Part shown: positions 3,258-18,739 of the stretch, in pieces | How positions within the stretch are numbered: the stretch's first letter is position 1 | How the letters are laid out: each line of letters opens with the position of its first letter | Assembly (NCBI GenBank): GCA_021795275.1 | Contig: JAJYPO010000010.1 | Coordinates: 1-27,342 of the forward strand | DNA from: Nitrospirota bacterium | GTDB taxonomy: Bacteria > Nitrospirota_A > Leptospirillia > Leptospirillales > Leptospirillaceae | Direction of reading: 5' to 3' | DNA: 27,342 nt | Made by a program: the position numbers and the translations under genes | The notes under the pieces: model-generated | The model's database searches: none | What the model saw: only the letters and a program-made list of their open reading frames with translations | What the model was told of the DNA's origin: nothing

Positions 3258-4352
3258 TCAAGGGCCTTTTTGTTCGGCTTTTTCTCGCACGCTCTGTTGC
3301 CAGAGAGTCTGCAGGATCGCAAGGATCACCGGACCTATGAAAAGACCGATGATTCCGAAGGCTTCGAGTCCCCCCAGAACTCCCAGAAGAATCAGGATGA
3401 AAGGCATCTCCGAAGACCGGCCGATGAAAATCGGTTTGATCACGTTCTCGATGCCTCCCACCACAAGCGCGTTCCAGACGAGAAACAGGATGAAGGTCAG
3501 CGTTCTTCCCTGGGCCAGCAGGGTGAAGGAGGCGGGAAGCCAGACGGCCACCGCACCCATCGGAAAGAGAGCCAGGAAGAAGAGCAGAAAGGTGAGGAGA
3601 AGGGCGTCAGGAATCCGCGCCACCTCGAAGCCGATTCCGGCCAGGACAGCCTGCGTCAATGCGGTGAAAAACATGCCGTAGACAACTCCCCGGGTTACGG
3701 GAGCGATCTGGCCGAAGGGCCCCTCAACCGCCGGCCCGCCCCATTTCAGCAGCAAGGTCCGTATCCCCTTCCACAGTTCCGGCCCCTTCAGGTAGAAACT
3801 GAAGAGCCCCAGAAGAAGCACCAGCGTTTTTACGGCAATCTTTCCGGCGTCGGTCATGATGGCGAAGAGGCGGTCCCCAAATGTCAGAAGATGAGACTGG
3901 AGACGGTCCATGAAGATGGAGACGCTGGGGGTATGGGTCCGGAAGTTCTGGTACCACTGCTGGATCCGCGTGCCGGCGAAGGGGATATGGGAGATCCATG
4001 CAGGAAGCGTGGCCTGGGGGTTCTCGATGAATCCCCTGAATTTGGCCACCTCGGTCAGGATTTCCTGGGTCAGCGGGAGGGCAAAGGAGAGAAGGGGCGC
4101 GAGGACGAGCGCCAGAAAAAGCACGGTCATCAGGAGCGCCGACAGAATGGGTTTTTTGACGACGCGTCGGAGGGTCGCGAGAATCGGGTAGGTCGCAAAA
4201 GCCAGGATCCCGGCCCAGAGAAGGGGGACCGCATAGGGGAGAAGTACATATCCCGCGGTTGACAGCAGTATCGCCAACAGGAGTGCCCTGACAAGCGGAG
4301 ATCCCGGTGGTGAACCTTCCGGCGTCACAAGGTTCGCAGAGGCATCTGTCAT
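3258..4352 (-). CDS. AI-2E family transporter (UPF0118 permease)
   Basis: A 364-residue polytopic membrane protein with about eight hydrophobic segments: a pair at the N-terminus (about 22-55), one near 70-95, a soluble middle portion around 100-160, and a dense membrane half from about 175 to 350. The family signature is in the second half: the [15 protein letters not shown] region, [11 protein letters not shown] and the final [17 protein letters not shown] motif. Members were named for AI-2 export (TqsA) but include Na+/H+ antiporters and many of unknown substrate, so no substrate is assigned. Its ATG overlaps the leuD stop by four bases (ATGA), placing it as the third gene of the leuCD operon. 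Confidence 0.85.
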
Positions 4353-5002
4353 GCGGCGGGAGGTGTCGTGGGACGAGTCCAGGGGGCCGATTTGTCCTGA
4401 CGAGTTTCGTATGCGGTGATTTCCTGTGTTTTTTTGAGAGAAAGTCCGATTTCGTCGAGTCCTTCAAGGAGGTGCGTTTTTCGGACCGGGTCGACGGAAA
4501 AGGAAAAGACTTCACCGGAGGTGGTCTGGACCTGCTGCTCCGGGAGGTCGATAGTCAGCTGAAAGCCGGGGGTTTTCGACACCTCGGAAAAGAGCGAGTC
4601 CACTTGCTGGGCGGTGAGAACAACCGGAAGTATCCCGTTCTTGAAGCAGTTGTTGTAGAAAATGTCGGCAAAAGAGGGCGCGATGATCGCACGGAAGCCA
4701 TAGTCCAGAAGGGCCCAGGGGGCGTGCTCTCTCGACGAGCCGCAGCCGAAGTTTTCTCTTGCCAGAAGGATCCGGGCTCCATGGTAGCGGGGATTGTTCA
4801 GGACAAAGGAGGGATCCGGAACGAGTCCGTCCGTGCTCCCGTCTGAGGGAGCGTCCTTGTATCGCCAGTCGTGGAAAAGGCTCACGCCGAGTCCGGTCCT
4901 CCTGATTGTTTTCAGAAACTGCTTGGGAATGATTGCGTCGGTATCGACGTTGGCCCGATCAATCGGGGCGACCATGGCGGTAAGAGTCACGAATGGTTCC
5001 AT
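4349..5002 (-). CDS. leuD: 3-isopropylmalate dehydratase small subunit LeuD
   Basis: A 217-residue aconitase-superfamily swivel domain that joins LeuC to isomerise 2-isopropylmalate to 3-isopropylmalate in leucine synthesis. Visible signatures are [14 protein letters not shown] near residue 19, the [14 protein letters not shown] loop that holds substrate-binding residues, and [13 protein letters not shown]. Length agrees with the usual 190-215 residues. GAGGAG lies upstream of the ATG, within a short GAGGA/TCCTC inverted repeat that could partly mask the ribosome site. The gene follows leuC by 23 nt and overlaps the permease gene by four. Confidence 0.96.
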
Positions 5003-5025
5003 GGAGGATTCTCCTCAAAGTTTTT

Positions 5026-6429
5026 TCAGGATTTTGGAAGCGTCCGTATGTCCACGAAGTGTCCGGCGATGGCGGCGGCTGCGGCCATTTCGGGGCTGAC
5101 AAGGTGCGTACGCCCGTTCTTGCCCTGACGTCCCTCGAAGTTCCGGTTGGAGGTGGAGGCGCAGCGCTCAAAGGGCGCAAGCTGGTCGGGGTTCATACCC
5201 AGACACATGGAGCATCCGGGTTCACGCCACTCGAGGCCCGCTTCGATGAAGATATGATGAAGGTTCTCTTTTTCGGCCTGTTGCCGGACAAGTCCGGAGC
5301 CAGGAACGACCATGGCGCTCACACCCCTGGCGACTTTGTGGCCCTTGACGATCGCGGCAGCGGCTCGAAGATCCTCGATCCGGCCGTTAGTGCAGGAGCC
5401 GATGAAGATGCGGGTGACGGGAATCCCGGTGATCGGAGTTCCCGGAGAAAGTCCCATGTAGGCAAGGGCTTTTTTGGCCATTTCCCGTTCGACAGGATCG
5501 GTGAACTGGTCGGGATCCGGAATCCGTCCGTCAACCCCGGTCACCTGTCCTGGATTGGTTCCCCATGTCACCTGGGGGGAGAGGCGGGAGGCGTCGAGGG
5601 TGACCGTCCTGTCATAGGTGGCGCCGGGATCCGTGGCGAGCGACTGCCAATAGGAGATCGCACGGTCCCAGAGGTCTCCCTTGGGCGCGTATGGTCGTCC
5701 CTTCAGGTAGTCGAAGGTCTTTTTATCGGGAGCCACAAGACCGGCCCGTGCCCCGGCCTCAATGGCCATGTTGCAGAGGGTCATGCGCCCTTCCATGGAG
5801 AGGGATTTGACTGCTGACCCGGTGAATTCGAGGACGTGTCCGGTTCCGCCTGCCGTCCCGATCTGGCCGATGACCGCCAGGATCATATCCTTGGGTGTGA
5901 CTCCGGGAGCCGGCGTGCCTTCGATCCGGATTTCCATGGTTTTGGGACGCGTCTGCGGAAGGGTCTGTGTTGCCAGAACATGCTCCACCTCGGAAGTGCC
6001 GATGCCGAAAGCCAGGGCCCCAAAGGCCCCGTGCGTCGCTGTGTGGCTGTCTCCGCAGACGATGGTGAGTCCCGGAAGGGTGATTCCCTGTTCGGGGGCG
6101 ATCACATGGACGATGCCCTGGCGCGGGTCGTTCATGGAGAAATAAGTCACGCCGAATTCCCTGGCATTTTTCTCCAGCGTATTGACCTGAAGAGCACTGA
6201 CCGGATCGGTGATCCCGTGGGATCGGTCGGTGGTCGGGACGTTGTGGTCGGGAACTGCGAAGGTCAGATCTGGACGGCGAACCTTGCGTCCGGCCATTCG
6301 GAGCCCTTCGAAAGCCTGAGGGCTCGTGACCTCATGGACGAGCTGCCGGTCGATATAGAGGAGAACCATTCCCTGATCCTCCGTGACGACATGGTCATTC
6401 CATATTTTCTCAATGATCGTTCTGGGCAT
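5026..6429 (-). CDS. leuC: 3-isopropylmalate dehydratase large subunit LeuC
   Basis: A 467-residue aconitase-family protein carrying the [4Fe-4S] cluster of isopropylmalate isomerase. The cluster ligands are visible as Cys346 (IGSCTNGR) and Cys406/Cys409 (GCSMCLGMN). The N-terminal signatures [17 protein letters not shown] and [13 protein letters not shown] are intact, as is the late [20 protein letters not shown] motif. The ATG has AGGAG at 6436-6440, six bases upstream. It is the first gene of leuC-leuD-permease on the minus strand. Other leucine genes (leuA, leuB) are not in the window. Confidence 0.97.
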
Positions 6430-7618: not shown

Positions 7619-8490
7619 GCACCCTCCTCGAGGACGAGCATTTCTCGAAGATAGGCCCCATAGCCGTTCTTGAGGGGAGCGGCGAGGGAAAGAACGGCCG
7701 CTTTCCCGATGTATCCCATCCGGTAGGCGATCTCTTCCGGGCAGGCCACCTTGATTCCCTGTCGACGCTCGATGACCTCCATGAAGATAGAGGCTTCCAG
7801 CAGGGATTCGTGGGTTCCCGTATCGAACCAGGCCGTTCCCCGCCCGAGCTTTTCCACCTTCAGGAGCCCTTCCTTCAGGTAGAGGCGGTTTAAGTCGGTG
7901 ATCTCGAGCTCCCCACGGGAGGAGGGGGAAAGGGATCGGGCGCGAGCGACAACGGTCCGGTCATAAAAGTAGATTCCTGGGACGGCGTACCGCGATGGAG
8001 GATTGGCCGGTTTTTCGACGATCTCCCGGACCGATCCTTGATGGTCGAAGGAGAGGACGCCGTATCGTTCCGGATCCCGGATCGCGTACCCGAAGATCAG
8101 AGATCCTTCAGAAAGACTCGCGGCCTTCTGAAGTGTTTCTGAGAGGCCGTGGCCGTAAAAGATGTTGTCTCCCAGAGCCAGGCAGACAGGGGCGTCCCCG
8201 ATGAAGGATTCCCCGATAAGAAAGGCTTGGGCGAGCCCTTCGGGCTTGGGCTGGACGGCATAGGAGACGGAGATTCCCCATTGGGCGCCGTCTCCGAGCA
8301 GACGTTTGAAGAGGGGGGTGTCCTCGGGCGTGGAGATGAGCAGAATCTCCCGTATGCCCGCCAGCATGAGGGTGGTCAGGGAGTAGTAAATCATGGGTTT
8401 GTCATAGACCGGCATCAGCTGCTTGCTCACCGCCCGCGTCAGAGGATAAAGCCGTGTCCCCGAGCCTCCGGCCAGAAGAATTCCTTTCAT
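7609..8490 (-). CDS. rfbA: glucose-1-phosphate thymidylyltransferase RfbA
   Basis: A 293-residue nucleotidyltransferase that makes dTDP-glucose from dTTP and glucose-1-phosphate. The N-terminal signature [17 protein letters not shown] is complete, followed by [15 protein letters not shown]. Further family motifs are [29 protein letters not shown] and the [15 protein letters not shown] segment. Length agrees with RmlA proteins of about 290 residues. Its ATG overlaps the rfbB stop by four bases. The product supplies the substrate of RfbB in the same operon. Confidence 0.97.
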
Positions 8491-9587
8491 CGTCCGCCTC
8501 CCGGGATATTGCTTCTTCCTGTGCCCTGTCGGGATCCATCATAGCGGGCGCGAAGGTCGCTCCACCAGGAAGTGTGGTCGAGATACCACCGGATGGTCTT
8601 TTCCAGGGCTTGTCCGAAGGTGTGGGCCGGTTTCCAGTCGAGGTCCCTCCGGGCTTTCGAGGCGTCGATCTCGTAGCGCCTGTCGTGGCCCGGCCTGTCC
8701 GGGACGGATGTGACGAGCCTGGCATAAGATGATCCGTCGGTGGACGGATGGACCCTGTCCAGGACCTCCAGAATGGTCGTTACGACCTCCCGGTTGGTTC
8801 GGGGGTTGCCCGCCCCCAGGGCATAGGTCTCTCCAGTCGTTCCCCTGTCGAAGGCGGCGATGACTCCTTCGCAGTGGTCTTCCACGAAGATCCAGTCCCG
8901 GATATTGAGGCCGTCCCCGTAAACGGGGATGGGACGCCCTTCAATGGCGGCGAGGATGACGGTGGGAATGAGCTTTTCGGGAAACTGCCATGGGCCGTAG
9001 TTGTTCGAGCAGTTGGTCGTGACAAGGGGAAGTCCATAGGTGTGGACGTAGGCCCTGGCCAGATGGTCGGACGAGGCCTTGGAAGCGGCATAGGGAGAGT
9101 TGGGGGCGTAGGGGGTTCGCTCGGAGAAGGGAGGATCCGATGGAAGAAGCGAGCCGTAGACTTCGTCCGTGGAGACGTGGAGAAATCGGAAACCCTTCGC
9201 TGATCCCCCGCCCCGGAGGTATCGGAGCGACTCGTCGAGAAGGACGAAGGTGCCGGTCACATTGGTTTCGATAAAGGCTTCGGGGCTTTCGATCGACCGG
9301 TCGACATGGCTTTCGGCAGCGAAATGGAAAAGGCCCGTGGGTTGATAGCGGTCAAAAAGCCCGGCAACCACCTTTCGGTCCCGGATGTCTCCCCGGACGA
9401 AAGTGTGATCGTGATCGTCCTTGAGGTCGTCAAGATTGGCAAGGTTGCCGGCATAGGTGAGCGCATCGAAGGTCACTACACGGGCCCGATTCTGTCTCCG
9501 GACCATTCGGACAAAATTCGAGCCGATGAAGCCGGCCCCCCCCGTGACGATCCAGCATTCGGCCATCGAGTCCTTTTCTGTAGTCAA
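8487..9587 (-). CDS. rfbB: dTDP-glucose 4,6-dehydratase RfbB
   Basis: An extended short-chain dehydrogenase/reductase of 366 residues with this start. It has the NAD-binding GGAGFIG (16-22), STDEVYG (139-145) and the catalytic YAASK (Tyr166/Lys170). It converts dTDP-glucose to dTDP-4-keto-6-deoxyglucose. The start is uncertain. TTG at 9587 follows AAGGAGGG (9593-9600) by five bases. ATG at 9566 begins at the usual family N-terminus but has only AAGGA four bases upstream. The more distal ATG at 9632 sits on the predicted transcription start and is unlikely. The gene opens the rfbBAC operon; rfbD is absent here. Confidence 0.95.
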
Positions 9588-9632
9588 TGTCCCTCCTTGA
9601 GAAGCCGTTTTCCTGGAGAAATCGATTGCCAT

Positions 9633-12950: not shown

Positions 12951-13320
12951 ATGGCTCGCGTTGCCCCCGTTTTGACCTGTACCGCAGAGGAACGAACCAC
13001 CCTGACCCAGTTTGGCCCAAATCGTAGCGAAGAGGCGCGTCTTGTGGGATGTGCCAGGATTTTTCTCCTGTGCCTTGACGGAAAACGGAACGAAGAGGTG
13101 GCCCGGGAACTGTGGGTGCGTTCCAGTACCGTCGGAGTGCGGCGACAACGATGCGCGGAACAGGGACTCCGGGATCGTCATCGGTCTGGACGCCCTTCAT
13201 GGAGGGGAGCTCCGGACCCGGATTCTGACCCAGCTTTCGCAACCGCCTCCCCCTGTCGGACCCAATTGTGTCCAGGGCCTCCGGGCGAAAACGGGTGGAA
13301 CCTCTCGGGGGGACGGTGAA
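12951..13320 (+). pseudogene. IS630-family transposase remnant, frameshifted
   Basis: From the ATG at 12951 about 80 residues match the N-terminal helix-turn-helix region of IS630-type transposases: MARVAPVLTCTAEERTTL, then ARIFLLCLDGKRNEEVAREL and the AEQGLRDRHRSGRP hinge. After about 13195 similarity continues in another frame (GGELRTRILTQLSQPPP at about 13202-13250), so a frameshift has occurred. The catalytic DDE domain is absent. GGAGG stands upstream of the ATG. Terminal inverted repeats were not identified. It is a decayed mobile-element fragment, not a functional gene. Confidence 0.7.
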
Positions 13321-13412: not shown

Positions 13413-14870
13413 CTAGAGCCAGATGTTGAATCCGAACATCATGGTGGTGACGGCACCGATGTACGCGGCCGCCAGGGACTCGTAGGAGATGTTTGCGTAG
13501 AATTCGAAATGAGGGTTGATCTGAAAAGAAGCCCCCCCATCCGCCTGGAGACCGGTCAGTGGGCCGGGTGTGTCGAAGGTTCCCACCACTCCGCCAATTT
13601 GGCCGTTTAACACCACATACCGGCCAATCTGATCCAGGGTGGAAAGCCCTGCAAATCCAAAATTTGACGACAACAGAACCGGAACCAGGGCGGTCGGATT
13701 CTGAAGAAAAGGAGTATAGGACTGGGTGTCATACCCGACGAGCAGATGAAGATCGGGTTTTTTCAGAAAGTTCCAGTCAAGAGCGAACATCGTGTTGTGG
13801 TTGATTCCGAAGGGGGTCTGGATCCCCTGAAGAGTGTCATAGGTATATTCGTATTCTCCCGACAGAGACAGTGTGGGAGTCAGAGAAAAGGTTGCGTTCA
13901 TCAGGCCTCCTGACTGGAGTCCCCCCTCCAGGAGGGCTTGGCCGTACCCGCTCCAGGGAAGCTGGTACCAGCCCTGGGCGTCAAGACGCAACGGTCCGGC
14001 CGGAAGATCGACATGGCCGTAGAATCCCGCATTGATCTGGTTTCCCGCAAACACCTCTCCCGTGTCCAAGAGGAAACGAATCCCGTCCGGTCCCTGACCG
14101 TCGACTCCAGCGAACAGGTAGGACTCGGGCGAACTCGTCTGTCCGGCGGCGGACCCGACATATAGGTTGGTCCCTGCCTGAAAGTGAACGACATCTTTCA
14201 GGAGGGGGGTTTCAACCGCGATGCCGGTCCCGATGGTGGAGCCGCCGGAGTAGGCAATGTCGATGTTCTGGACGCGTATGTGATATTCGGAGTTCTCCAG
14301 TTCGTAGGTGGAAGGAGACTGGAAGGGGGGCGGTAGCGGTTCCTGAAAGTTAATGTTCTGATCGAACGTGACCAGGGGCGGTATCGACAAGGCCAGAATC
14401 TCGAGAGTTTTCAGGTCGTCCCTGACCTTGTTTCTCTCTTCCTCGCCCAGGGAGGAATCGTGGGCGAGTCCGGCGAGGATCTTCCGGGATCGGGAGAGGG
14501 AGCCTTTTTGCATGAGGAGTTCCGCCTTCAGCCGATGAAGGGTCTTATCATTGGGAAACTCCTTGATCCCCCGGTTCAGGATACGAAGGCCGGTGTCGGG
14601 CTGGTTGATCTTCCTCGCAATTCTTCCTCCCAGCCGATAGGCTGCCAGATTTTTCGGATGGTTCCTGACATAGAGGTTGATCCGCTCTTCCGCCAGCGAA
14701 TACTTTCTCGCCCGAACGGCCTCCTGGACCAGGGTCCATTCATGGTCAGTATTGGTTGACAGGGAGAGTTCGGAACCCAATGCACCAGGACAGGACAGGA
14801 GGGGCTGGCTACAGATCCCGAAAAGGAGCAGGGCCGGAATGAGTCCGGCCCTGGGAGTCGCGGGGGGCAT
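13413..14870 (-). CDS. TPR/beta-barrel outer-membrane protein (unknown function)
   Basis: The 485-residue product starts with a signal peptide (about 1-33, hydrophobic LIPALLLFGICSQPLL). A helical region of about 45-155 has TPR-like repeats, for example YSLAEERINLYVRNHPKNLAAYRLG and TGLRILNRGIKEFPNDKTLHRLKAELL. From about 165 to the end it is rich in alternating aromatic/glycine/polar strands typical of an outer-membrane barrel, closing with FGFNIWL. This architecture resembles TPR-porins that export polysaccharide (PgaA/BcsC type), but no specific family was recognised. The ATG overlaps the TAA of the upstream coiled-coil gene (TAATG), so the two are translationally coupled and probably act together at the cell surface. 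Confidence 0.75.
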   Translation of the reverse strand: MPPATPRAGLIPALLLFGICSQPLLSCPGALGSELSLSTNTDHEWTLVQEAVRARKYSLAEERINLYVRNHPKNLAAYRLGGRIARKINQPDTGLRILNRGIKEFPNDKTLHRLKAELLMQKGSLSRSRKILAGLAHDSSLGEEERNKVRDDLKTLEILALSIPPLVTFDQNINFQEPLPPPFQSPSTYELENSEYHIRVQNIDIAYSGGSTIGTGIAVETPLLKDVVHFQAGTNLYVGSAAGQTSSPESYLFAGVDGQGPDGIRFLLDTGEVFAGNQINAGFYGHVDLPAGPLRLDAQGWYQLPWSGYGQALLEGGLQSGGLMNATFSLTPTLSLSGEYEYTYDTLQGIQTPFGINHNTMFALDWNFLKKPDLHLLVGYDTQSYTPFLQNPTALVPVLLSSNFGFAGLSTLDQIGRYVVLNGQIGGVVGTFDTPGPLTGLQADGGASFQINPHFEFYANISYESLAAAYIGAVTTMMFGFNIWL

Positions 14871-15712
14871 TACCTGTGATGTCTGTGCATGCGGGCATGA
14901 TAACCGGCTTGGTGAGAAGGGGAATAAAGGGAGGCAATTCTCTGGTGGGAGCCCTGGACAATTTCCCGGGTCGCCTCCATATGGTGGTCACGGAGGAGGT
15001 CCGCCCTCTTGAGGCCATCATTTTGATCATCCCCGTCGTGGTGAAAGGAGGCTTCCGGGGATTCGTGGTCGCGAATATCTCTGTCAACCCGATCGAAATC
15101 CGGACGGTTTTCGCCGCGCAACTCCTTGAGGCGGTCCTTCAGCCTGGCGATCCTGGTACGGATGGCGGCAATATCCTCTTTCCGGTCGGGGTCGAAGTGT
15201 TTTTGTCTTTCGAGAGCGGTTAAACGGGCCCTGAGTTTTTTGATTTTAGTCTGGATGGCGGCAATGTCCTCCTTCCGGTCAGGATTGGAAGGTTTCTGGG
15301 CGTTGAGAGCGGTCAAACGGGCCCTGAGTTTTTTGATTTTAGCCTGGATGGCGGCGATATCCTCCTTCCGGTCAGGATTGGAAGGTTTCTGGGCGTTGAG
15401 GGCGGTCAGTCGGGCCCTGAGTTTTTTGATTTTAGCCTGGATGGCGGCGATATCCTCCTTCCGGTCAGGATTGGAAGGTTTCTGGGCGTTGAGGGCAGTC
15501 AGTCGGGCCCTGAGTTTTTTGATTTTAGCCTGGATGGCGGCGATATCGCTCCTGTTGTCGAATCTGTCAGCCATCAGATCTTGATCGGTTCCCGGAGGAA
15601 GCGCAATCGAAGATCCCGAAGGTTTGGTGATAGAGGTCGACCCATGGGCGAATCCCCATCCGGTGAGCAGGGAAATAACAACAACGGCCGGAATTGTTTT
15701 ATTAATTTTCAT
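14870..15712 (-). CDS. exported coiled-coil repeat protein with His-rich tail (unknown)
   Basis: A 280-residue protein of no recognised family. It has a signal peptide (about 1-24, MKINKTIPAVVVISLLTG then AHG). Residues 56-210 are five 31-residue repeats (consensus begins DIAAIQAKIKKLRARLTAL and ends NPDRKE) with heptad-spaced I/L, a likely coiled coil. The tail (about 225-280) holds many histidines, including SFHHDGDD, LLRDHHME and HARMHRHHR. The ATG is supported by GAGGAG (15719-15724) at six bases. The stop overlaps the start of the TPR/barrel gene. Possible roles are a surface fibre or lysine/arginine-rich passenger delivered or anchored by the barrel, or a periplasmic metal binder; none is shown. 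Confidence 0.75.
   Translation of the reverse strand: MKINKTIPAVVVISLLTGWGFAHGSTSITKPSGSSIALPPGTDQDLMADRFDNRSDIAAIQAKIKKLRARLTALNAQKPSNPDRKEDIAAIQAKIKKLRARLTALNAQKPSNPDRKEDIAAIQAKIKKLRARLTALNAQKPSNPDRKEDIAAIQTKIKKLRARLTALERQKHFDPDRKEDIAAIRTRIARLKDRLKELRGENRPDFDRVDRDIRDHESPEASFHHDGDDQNDGLKRADLLRDHHMEATREIVQGSHQRIASLYSPSHQAGYHARMHRHHR
15083..15547 (-). repeat. 93-bp in-frame tandem repeat, five units
   Basis: Five head-to-tail units of 93 bp encode 31 residues each. The three units nearest the gene start (15269-15547) are almost identical in DNA; the fourth (to 15176) carries several changes and the fifth (to 15083) is diverged (DIAAIRTRIARLKDRLKEL). The gradient of identity implies recent expansion from the 5' side, so unit number may vary among strains. 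Confidence 0.92.
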
Positions 15713-15761: not shown

Positions 15762-15947
15762 AAACTAATTCCGGGTGATGTGATTTAAGACACGGATTCC
15801 CGGAGTGTCCCTGGTCCGTCTGGTGGTCGAAAATCACTTCTGGTATGGATGAAGGGGTTGTCGTCGAGACTTCAGGGAATGGCTGCGAAAGAGGTGGCGG
15901 TGCGGGCCCCTTTCCCGGCAAAATCTCCTGTGATACCCAACAAGGAG

Positions 15948-16145
15948 GTGTTCACGGTATACGGGCTCAAAATGTCCCAAAGAGACGCGATCCTTGGTTT
16001 GCTGGCATTGGGATGCTCCCATCGCCGGATCGCCCGCGAAGTCGATCGGGAAACCGTAAGCCGTTACGCCAAGCTTCAACGGAGTGCCGCCAATCCGGCC
16101 ATTTCGACCCACGGATTCCGATTGAGGTTATCCCGGCAATCTCAG
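15948..16145 (+). pseudogene. IS21-family istA transposase fragment
   Basis: The frame reads VFTVYGLKMSQRDAILGLLA, then GCSHRRIAREVDRETVSRYA and SAANPAISTHG. This matches the start of IS21-type IstA proteins: the N-terminal helix-turn-helix (RRIAREVxxxRETVxRY) followed by the short SAANPAIST linker seen after the variable proline-rich stretch. The helix-turn-helix has lost about two residues, the linker is mostly deleted, and no integrase core follows before tRNA-Arg. An AAGGAGGTG overlaps the possible GTG start; ATG at 15972 is an alternative. It is a relic of an insertion. Confidence 0.65.
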
Positions 16146-16184
16146 ATTAATGTCGAGGTATTTTTATATATTTGGCTCTGGTAT

Positions 16185-16261
16185 TGGTGCGCCTGGCAGG
16201 AATCGAACCTGCGACCTGCGGATTCGAAGTCCGACGCTCTATCCTACTGAGCTACAGGCGC
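16185..16261 (-). tRNA. tRNA-Arg (anticodon TCG)
   Basis: The minus strand folds as a 77-nt tRNA. Acceptor stem GCGCCTG/CAGGCGC, discriminator A and encoded CCA are all present. The anticodon loop CTTCGAA gives TCG, reading CGA. The T arm has GGTTCGATTCC. Its 3' end faces the accessory region that holds the two transposase relics and the coiled-coil operon, the usual side for integration at tRNA genes. Confidence 0.95.
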
Positions 16262-17302: not shown

Positions 17303-18739
17303 ATCGAGGCCACGGAACCCCTTCCGGAATATCGCAGTAAAATCCTGATTGTTGGGGCGAATGTGGGAAGCGGCCACATGCGCGCGGCACAGGCGGTCGC
17401 AAAAGCCCTTTCCAGGATCTCCCCATCGTATGACGTAAGGGTCGAGGATCTTCTGGAAAAGGGCCGCCCTCTCTATTGTTTCCTTTATCGCACCGGCTAC
17501 CTTTTCCTCGCCCGTCGCTTTCCCCGTCTCCTCGATCGCCTTTACGAATGGAGCGACCCCATGCCGCGATGGGTTGCCCTCCTTATTTCTCGGATCGACC
17601 GATTGGCATTCCGTGAGTTTTTGAAAGAAATCCATGCAGATCCTCCCGATCTTGTCCTCTCCACCCATTTCCTTCCGCTTGAAATACTGTCGCCGGATCG
17701 CCTCAAGGGAGTCCTTCGGGCGCCTCTCTGGACTATCGTCACCGATCTTTATCCCCATGGGATCTGGTTCTGGCCGGGCGTCGATCATTACTTCGTCTCA
17801 GGTGAGGCTGCCGAGAGGACGGTCCGGAAGAAAGGAGAGGACCAGACGATTTCCGTTTCGTCGACGGGTATCCCGGTGGATCCTGATTTTAATGTCCATC
17901 CGACGCGGGGCGATCTTCTGGAGAGGATGGGACTTCCTGACCGAAACACGGTGCTCCTCCTGTCAGGAGGGGAGGGCATCGACGATCTTGTCTCCCTCCT
18001 CGACTCTTTCGTCGGCTTCTCCGGAGAACTGACCCTTATCGCGGTTGCCGGAAAAAACAGCCGGCTTTTCAAAAAATGCAGTCGGTGGGCGGCTCTTCAT
18101 GAAAGTCCCGGACGGGCCGTCAGGGCCCATGGCTTTGTACAAAACATGCCGGAATTGATGGGGCTTGCCGACGTGGTGGTCACCAAGCCGGGGGGAATGA
18201 CCCTTTTCGAAGCGCTGGCCCTTGAAAAGCCCCTGGTCCTTCTTCCGGCCAGGGGGGGACAGGAGACGATCAACCGGCGCTGGGCGGTAGACGCCGGGGC
18301 GGCGGTGCCCTGTGATCAGCCCCGGAGGGCAGGCGCCCTCGTTTGCACCCTCTTCGAAGATCCGGAGCGCCTTTCGGATATGGCGCGCGCCTCCCGTCGC
18401 TCCGGCCGTCCGGAGGCGTCCACCCTCATTGCCCGGCAGGTTGCCGGTTGCCTTTCCCGTGACGTCTTTTCAAAAGGAGGTTTCCATGCCGACAGCCCAT
18501 TACCGGTCGGTCTTCATTTCCGACGTGCACCTCGGAACCCGGGACTGCCGGGTGGATCTTCTTCTGGACTTCCTGAGGGAGAGCGAGTGCGAGACCCTTT
18601 ATCTCGTGGGGGACATCCTGGACTTCTGGCAACTGAAGCGGAGCTGGTTCTGGCCAGAGGCCCACAGCACCGTCATCCAGAAGATTCTCCGAAAGTCCCG
18701 CCATGGAACCAAGGTGGTCTATCTCGAGGGGAACCATGA
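17303..18739 (+). CDS. GT28/MGDG synthase-type glycosyltransferase, unusual start and long overlap
   Basis: A glycosyltransferase of the processive diacylglycerol glycosyltransferase/MurG-like GT28 superfamily. From codon 17303 the first strand KILIVGANVGSGHMRAAQAV forms the acceptor-side fold (MGDG_synth domain, about 13-170). The C-terminal nucleotide-sugar site has KPGGMTLFEAL (Lys295-) and ARGGQETIN. It probably glycosylates a membrane lipid at the cytoplasmic face. The only standard start, GTG 17363, would delete the first beta strand; ATC 17303 has a strong ribosome site. Family-like sequence ends near 18480, yet the frame continues to 18739, overlapping the next gene by 254 nt with a low-complexity Gly/Arg/Pro tail. 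A lost stop or frameshift is possible. Confidence 0.8.
   Translation: MEATEPLPEYRSKILIVGANVGSGHMRAAQAVAKALSRISPSYDVRVEDLLEKGRPLYCFLYRTGYLFLARRFPRLLDRLYEWSDPMPRWVALLISRIDRLAFREFLKEIHADPPDLVLSTHFLPLEILSPDRLKGVLRAPLWTIVTDLYPHGIWFWPGVDHYFVSGEAAERTVRKKGEDQTISVSSTGIPVDPDFNVHPTRGDLLERMGLPDRNTVLLLSGGEGIDDLVSLLDSFVGFSGELTLIAVAGKNSRLFKKCSRWAALHESPGRAVRAHGFVQNMPELMGLADVVVTKPGGMTLFEALALEKPLVLLPARGGQETINRRWAVDAGAAVPCDQPRRAGALVCTLFEDPERLSDMARASRRSGRPEASTLIARQVAGCLSRDVFSKGGFHADSPLPVGLHFRRAPRNPGLPGGSSSGLPEGERVRDPLSRGGHPGLLATEAELVLARGPQHRHPEDSPKVPPWNQGGLSRGEP

Follow-up and report, generated by a model that had tools for sequence, protein, structure and literature searches.

Outer-membrane proteins that combine tetratricopeptide repeats (TPR) with a beta-barrel are known from synthase-dependent polysaccharide export and from Slam-type protein secretion. 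PgaA and BcsC export poly-N-acetylglucosamine (PNAG) and cellulose, and PelB, with ~1150 residues, joins a 16-strand, net negatively charged barrel to a long periplasmic TPR scaffold and an inner-membrane anchor; according to PMC12141448, the modelled scaffold exceeds 20 nm and the Plug-I position lies between barrel strands 7 and 8. Slam proteins, of the type XI secretion system (T11SS), are TPR-barrel outer-membrane proteins whose secreted partners are targeted by their C terminus (PMC8406197, PMC12282271), and DUF560 proteins have been likened to PgaA before (PMC8406197). Here we describe two genes, P1 and P2, in a 27,342-nucleotide stretch of DNA from a Nitrospirota bacterium of the family Leptospirillaceae (contig JAJYPO010000010.1, positions 1 to 27,342; hereafter the window), in which a secreted repeat protein is encoded immediately upstream of a short TPR-barrel protein. 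Because P1 lies upstream in every testable genome, the genes overlap at every locus and their flanks are mostly unlike, sequence comparison makes their coupling as one two-gene module well supported. The pair is described in no title or abstract opening found in our literature search.

T11SS is a precedent for this arrangement, since it too pairs a TPR-barrel outer-membrane protein with a secreted protein, but the parts differ. The T11SS barrel has 14 strands (PMC8406197), whereas 16 are predicted in the model of P2, and T11SS cargo ends in an 8-strand C-terminal barrel, whereas the tail of P1 was modelled, at low confidence, as helical and free of strands. DUF560 (PF04575) gave no match at E ≤ 1 in a search of 21 genomes of the family whose controls were equally silent, nor was it among the Pfam matches of P2 at E ≤ 1. 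TpsB, of two-partner secretion, has POTRA domains before its barrel; P2 is instead predicted to have TPR-type helices, with no POTRA at E ≤ 1.

Linkage of P1 and P2 and the architecture of P1

Close orthologues of P2 (63–71% identity) occur in 6 of the 21 genomes sampled from the bacterial family that contains Leptospirillum, and in all six, which are the testable ones, P1 lies directly upstream, in agreement with the adjacency of homologues supposed in a preliminary description of this DNA; two further genomes (G007 and G015) carry P2 fragments at contig ends, where adjacency is unreadable. Matches to the P1 tail at E ≤ 0.01 fall only at those six places (a whole-protein P1 search covered 16 of the 21 genomes, the later tail search all of them). 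The overlap of the P1 stop with the P2 start, read as TAATG in the preliminary description and confirmed here together with the gene coordinates, is kept at 7/7 loci, window included, as TAATG in six; in the seventh, a TTG start overlies TGA. No genes other than P1 and P2 are common to the window and five other loci, as judged from open reading frames (ORFs) of at least 110 residues found with a simple caller; the sixth locus was omitted, its contig being too short. Two loci from the same genus, L037 and L049, have four further genes in common, and one gene of L040 weakly matches two of L047. The assemblies of these loci are likewise represented in the set of family genomes, and the loci were not counted twice, and 28 relatives from a search that scored the 7996 candidates sharing most words stand outside the adjacency counts. 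We judge adjacency and overlap of this kind to be well beyond chance.

The repeats and the tail of P1 differ in conservation. Like P2, P1 starts with a signal-like sequence when read by eye, as proposed earlier for both products, and in P1 this start appears cleavable. A 93-bp unit (4.2 copies with 93% matches at 15160–15553, Tandem Repeats Finder) gives rise to 31-residue repeats, and near-identical forms of P1 with 280, 249 and 218 residues stand one and two whole units apart. Across the 15 rows of the alignment, a simple pattern counts 0 to 7 units; the zero-unit forms have 187 residues in G019 and, with diverged helical repeats, 345 in G017. Mean pairwise identity is 0.67 in the tail, with a core of 0.91 (residues 215–229), versus 0.50 in the repeats (9 of the 15 rows, six near-duplicates having been dropped; the repeat value hinges on the repeat alignment). 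The tail is indeed rich in histidine, with 11 His among the last 75 residues (14.7%), six of them invariant in the 15 aligned rows, some of which are near-duplicates. To judge from these alignments, a conserved tail on an otherwise variable protein suits a recognition element attached to a passenger, and the six invariant His would fit such an element as well.

Other earlier ideas about P1 fared less well. Its structure model, which is of low confidence (mean predicted local distance difference test, pLDDT, 59.2; predicted template modelling score, pTM, 0.26), shows separate helices of ~26 residues split by Pro-containing linkers; of the proposed tandem coiled coil, the tandem helical repeats thus stand, whereas the single continuous coiled coil, and a fibre built from it, do not appear in the model. 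A metal-binding layer is doubtful and is not favoured here since at the low pH at which Leptospirillum lives its histidines would carry a proton. In Pfam and NCBIfam, P1 matches FlxA, DUF2730, SMC-like and other families, in some cases over the Pfam cut-off, and its repeats weakly match a sequence in G024, a genome from outside the family (E = 3.7e-4); all of these were set aside as matches of helical composition.

The P2 barrel and its relation to PelB

The model of P2 (mean pLDDT 76.6, pTM 0.60) places TPR-type helices ahead of 16 predicted strands (Table 1), in keeping with the TPR domain and the barrel that had been expected in residues 165–485. Pfam yields TPR matches at E = 3e-4, under the curated cut-off, the sole other match being a weak one to DUF2730 (E ≤ 1). 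A short helix (residues 310–314) is predicted between strands 7 and 8, the position of Plug-I in PelB. The best solved Foldseek match is PelBC, with PgaA and BcsC also among the best solved TPR-barrels, so the likeness to exporters of the PgaA and BcsC type noted earlier is borne out by fold; many porins are found among the weaker matches.

The preliminary description recognised no family for either gene. The P2 barrel is, however, ~28% identical (E = 6.4e-46) to the C-terminal part of a 1156-residue protein that opens a pel operon in G016, followed by PelF (NF038011, E = 9.2e-139), PelG (PF16933, E = 2.6e-124), a GH114 protein and a lipoprotein with weak similarity to GNA1162; the first and last genes of this operon are called PelB and PelC by position. 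On this evidence, the barrels of P2 and of the pel-operon PelB of the same bacterial family are related. P2 nevertheless has a PelB-type barrel without being PelB itself, because its TPR region is short and no pel genes lie beside it: at 485 residues it starts with a signal-like sequence, lacks the long periplasmic scaffold and inner-membrane anchor of PelB, and has no PelC-like gene alongside.

Database searches place the barrel less readily. The curated barrel model PF24604 exceeded its cut-off in 0/21 genomes and likewise missed the pel-operon PelB of those genomes. Although PgaA and BcsC resemble P2 in fold, a sequence search of the PDB with a barrel-only profile gave no matching chain at E ≤ 10, and with a profile that includes the TPR, only the TPR part aligns among the 60 PDB matches listed. 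With the barrel of the G016 PelB as query, a protein search retrieved 15 other proteins, of which none carries the name PelB. The link to PelB of Pseudomonas aeruginosa rests on the fold and on the local pel operon, since no sequence link was found.

Table 1. Features of the P1–P2 pair in the window.
Feature	Position	Strand	Basis or remark
P1, secreted repeat protein, 280 residues, first gene of the pair	14870..15712	-	upstream orthologue in 6/6 testable genomes
P1 signal sequence, residues 1–25, cleavage site approximate	15638..15712	-	read by eye
P1 tandem 31-residue helical repeats, residues 56–204: four similar units and a diverged fifth	15101..15547	-	
P1 conserved His-rich C-terminal tail, residues 205–280, proposed recognition element	14873..15100	-	
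TAATG, P1 stop over P2 start	14868..14872	-	overlap in 7/7 loci
P2, short TPR domain and 16-strand PelB-type barrel, 485 residues	13413..14870	-	
P2 TPR-type region, residues 43–161	14388..14744	-	weak Pfam matches and modelled helices
P2 barrel, residues 197–484, 16 predicted strands	13419..14282	-	structure model, fold matches

The ORFs on either side of the pair (12951–13319 and 15849–16250) have no Pfam match but look to us like transposase remnants. A tRNA lies at 16188–16261; Rfam found two tRNAs and nothing else in the window.

Barrel lineages and their partners in the family

Of 295 Nitrospirota genomes, 17 contain matches to the barrel-only profile, 24 in total, and all 17 belong to the Leptospirillum family; the barrel was unseen outside the family among these 295 genomes, other phyla not having been searched with this profile. 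Eight of the 24 barrels are of P2 type, and the six testable ones all have P1. Nine were taken as PelB, and a PelC-like lipoprotein adjoins 9/9; PelG is on the same contig for seven of these and on another contig in G012 and G015. A possibly new, duplicated pel operon has already been published for Leptospirillum ferrooxidans (PMC7112194). In G017 and G015, PelB seems to be encoded in two parts, a TPR protein and a short TPR-barrel that begins with a signal-like sequence of its own (L042:9048-13071 and L102:3465-6972, respectively, minus strand); a frameshift may account for this.

Six further barrels are short and belong to a second module, in which the barrel in 6/6 follows a Ser/Thr-rich secreted protein and precedes a PelC-like lipoprotein (L039:8159-12469, L041:1-3248, L044:162-3193, L045:9265-12236, L050:8387-11203 and L100:1024-3995), the loci of G003 and G009 being nearly the same. 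The upstream-partner search scored 60 candidates per genome, and a 31-residue signal-region match in G015 was not counted. As in the P1–P2 pair, a low-complexity secreted protein with His near its basic C terminus precedes a short TPR-barrel; unlike in the pair, the barrel forms a separate clade and the lipoprotein is present. Homology between P1 and the Ser/Thr-rich protein was not accepted: hhalign gave a probability of 94% but over only 41 low-complexity helical columns, so homology of the tails is not shown. The remaining barrel, in G018, is short and follows an acidic low-complexity secreted protein (L043:5240-5896 for the secreted protein, 3706-5406 for the barrel, minus strand). A further Ser/Thr-rich secreted protein is encoded in G017 (L098:362-1789, minus strand), for which a neighbouring barrel cannot be told because the contig ends 361 bases downstream.

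Phylogenetic analysis of 16 barrels gave separate clades for the P2 type (100/100), for the Ser/Thr type (100/99) and for three PelB rows (100/100). The G018 barrel and the PelB of G017 sit on long branches, and their placement is uncertain; the tree was rooted by midpoint only and does not give the order in which the forms arose.

Export or display of P1 and competing explanations

The best of several readings, which we hold with middling confidence on the whole of this analysis, is that P2 exports or displays P1; the export or anchoring proposed in the preliminary description is thus the leading reading, with contact and transport as steps that we infer. P1 would cross the inner membrane by Sec, its tail would dock on the TPR domain of P2, and the barrel would then either let the protein through or retain it. 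The helical repeats would thereby be released from the cell or displayed on its outside, where P1 might act as a biofilm-matrix protein. In this way, a barrel of polysaccharide type would serve a dedicated protein partner, working like Slam/T11SS but on a different barrel. The broader proposal that PelB-type barrels of three lineages in one family export or anchor dedicated low-complexity or repeat proteins via a C-terminal tail, by a route distinct from the numbered secretion systems, is tentative, and we think it somewhat more apt to fail than to hold.

Several observations weigh against export or display of P1. Adjacency, as read from the genomes, points to linkage of P1 with P2 and not to what moves what; the best-matching solved TPR-barrels (PelB, PgaA and BcsC) export polysaccharide; and the short form does not by itself imply protein export, since the split PelB of G017 and G015 also includes a short TPR-barrel. 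The P1 model is poor, and the window encodes a glycosyltransferase of the monogalactosyldiacylglycerol-synthase type (17363–18739) and a GDP-mannose dehydratase-type protein (8487–9632), neither of which adjoins the pair. Nor does charge explain the pairing, since the barrels are negative in 16/16 rows (net -12 to -21) whereas ten secreted proteins, one of them (L098) without a barrel in view, range from -35 to +33. Matching of a cationic partner to an anionic barrel, as charge matching has been proposed for Pel (PMC12141448), is therefore not general: three of the ten secreted proteins break the rule (+2, +2 and -35).

It is conceivable, if rather unlikely, that P2 exports a polysaccharide and that P1 is a co-expressed accessory, either a polymer-binding secreted matrix protein or a periplasmic helper replacing PelC. 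The fold matches to polysaccharide exporters and the relationship to a PelB encoded in one operon with PelF and PelG are consistent with this, as is the co-occurrence of the pair with PelG in G016 and G017 and of PelG with a P2 fragment in G015. PelG was found in 11/21 family genomes, including G003 and G011, in which no PelB was found. However, pel genes are missing from the immediate surroundings of the pair both in the window and in G016, where the pair (157–159 kb) and the pel operon (~766–777 kb) share one contig, and no polysaccharide synthase, deacetylase or hydrolase was recognised beside the pair in these two maps, cellulose and PNAG synthases not having been searched for in the genomes. 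Moreover, G010, G014, G019 and G021 have the pair with no PelG or PelC-like lipoprotein detected. Given that these genomes are 64–86% complete (81%, 86%, 64% and 72%, respectively), chance absence from all four is unlikely, but their incompleteness again tempers the case for export or display of P1.

Quite unlikely, in our view, is a role of P1 as a periplasmic scaffold, with its helices standing in for the long TPR arm of PelB and the two proteins together resembling a split PelB. The short TPR region of P2, set against the PelB scaffold modelled in PMC12141448, the low-confidence model of P1 as a helix array and the apparent splitting of PelB in G017 and G015 would suit such a role, but the start of P1 looks by eye like a cleavable signal rather than an anchor, and a length that varies by whole units, down to the short form in G019, is unsuited to a fixed span. 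That P1 and P2 are separate envelope proteins joined only by co-transcription, with P2 a porin-like channel, is improbable: the weaker porin matches and the lack of direct evidence for interaction of P1 with P2 would allow it, but the overlap at every locus amid mostly unlike flanks, and the fact that two other lineages of the barrel also adjoin a secreted partner (in six genomes and in one), argue against it.

Should export or display of P1 by P2 prove true, it would mean that barrels of biofilm-polysaccharide export can be redirected to the transport or display of proteins. It would also link polysaccharide export of the synthase-dependent kind to Slam-type protein secretion, and would name a dedicated surface-protein system in relatives of Leptospirillum, organisms known from acid mine drainage and bioleaching.
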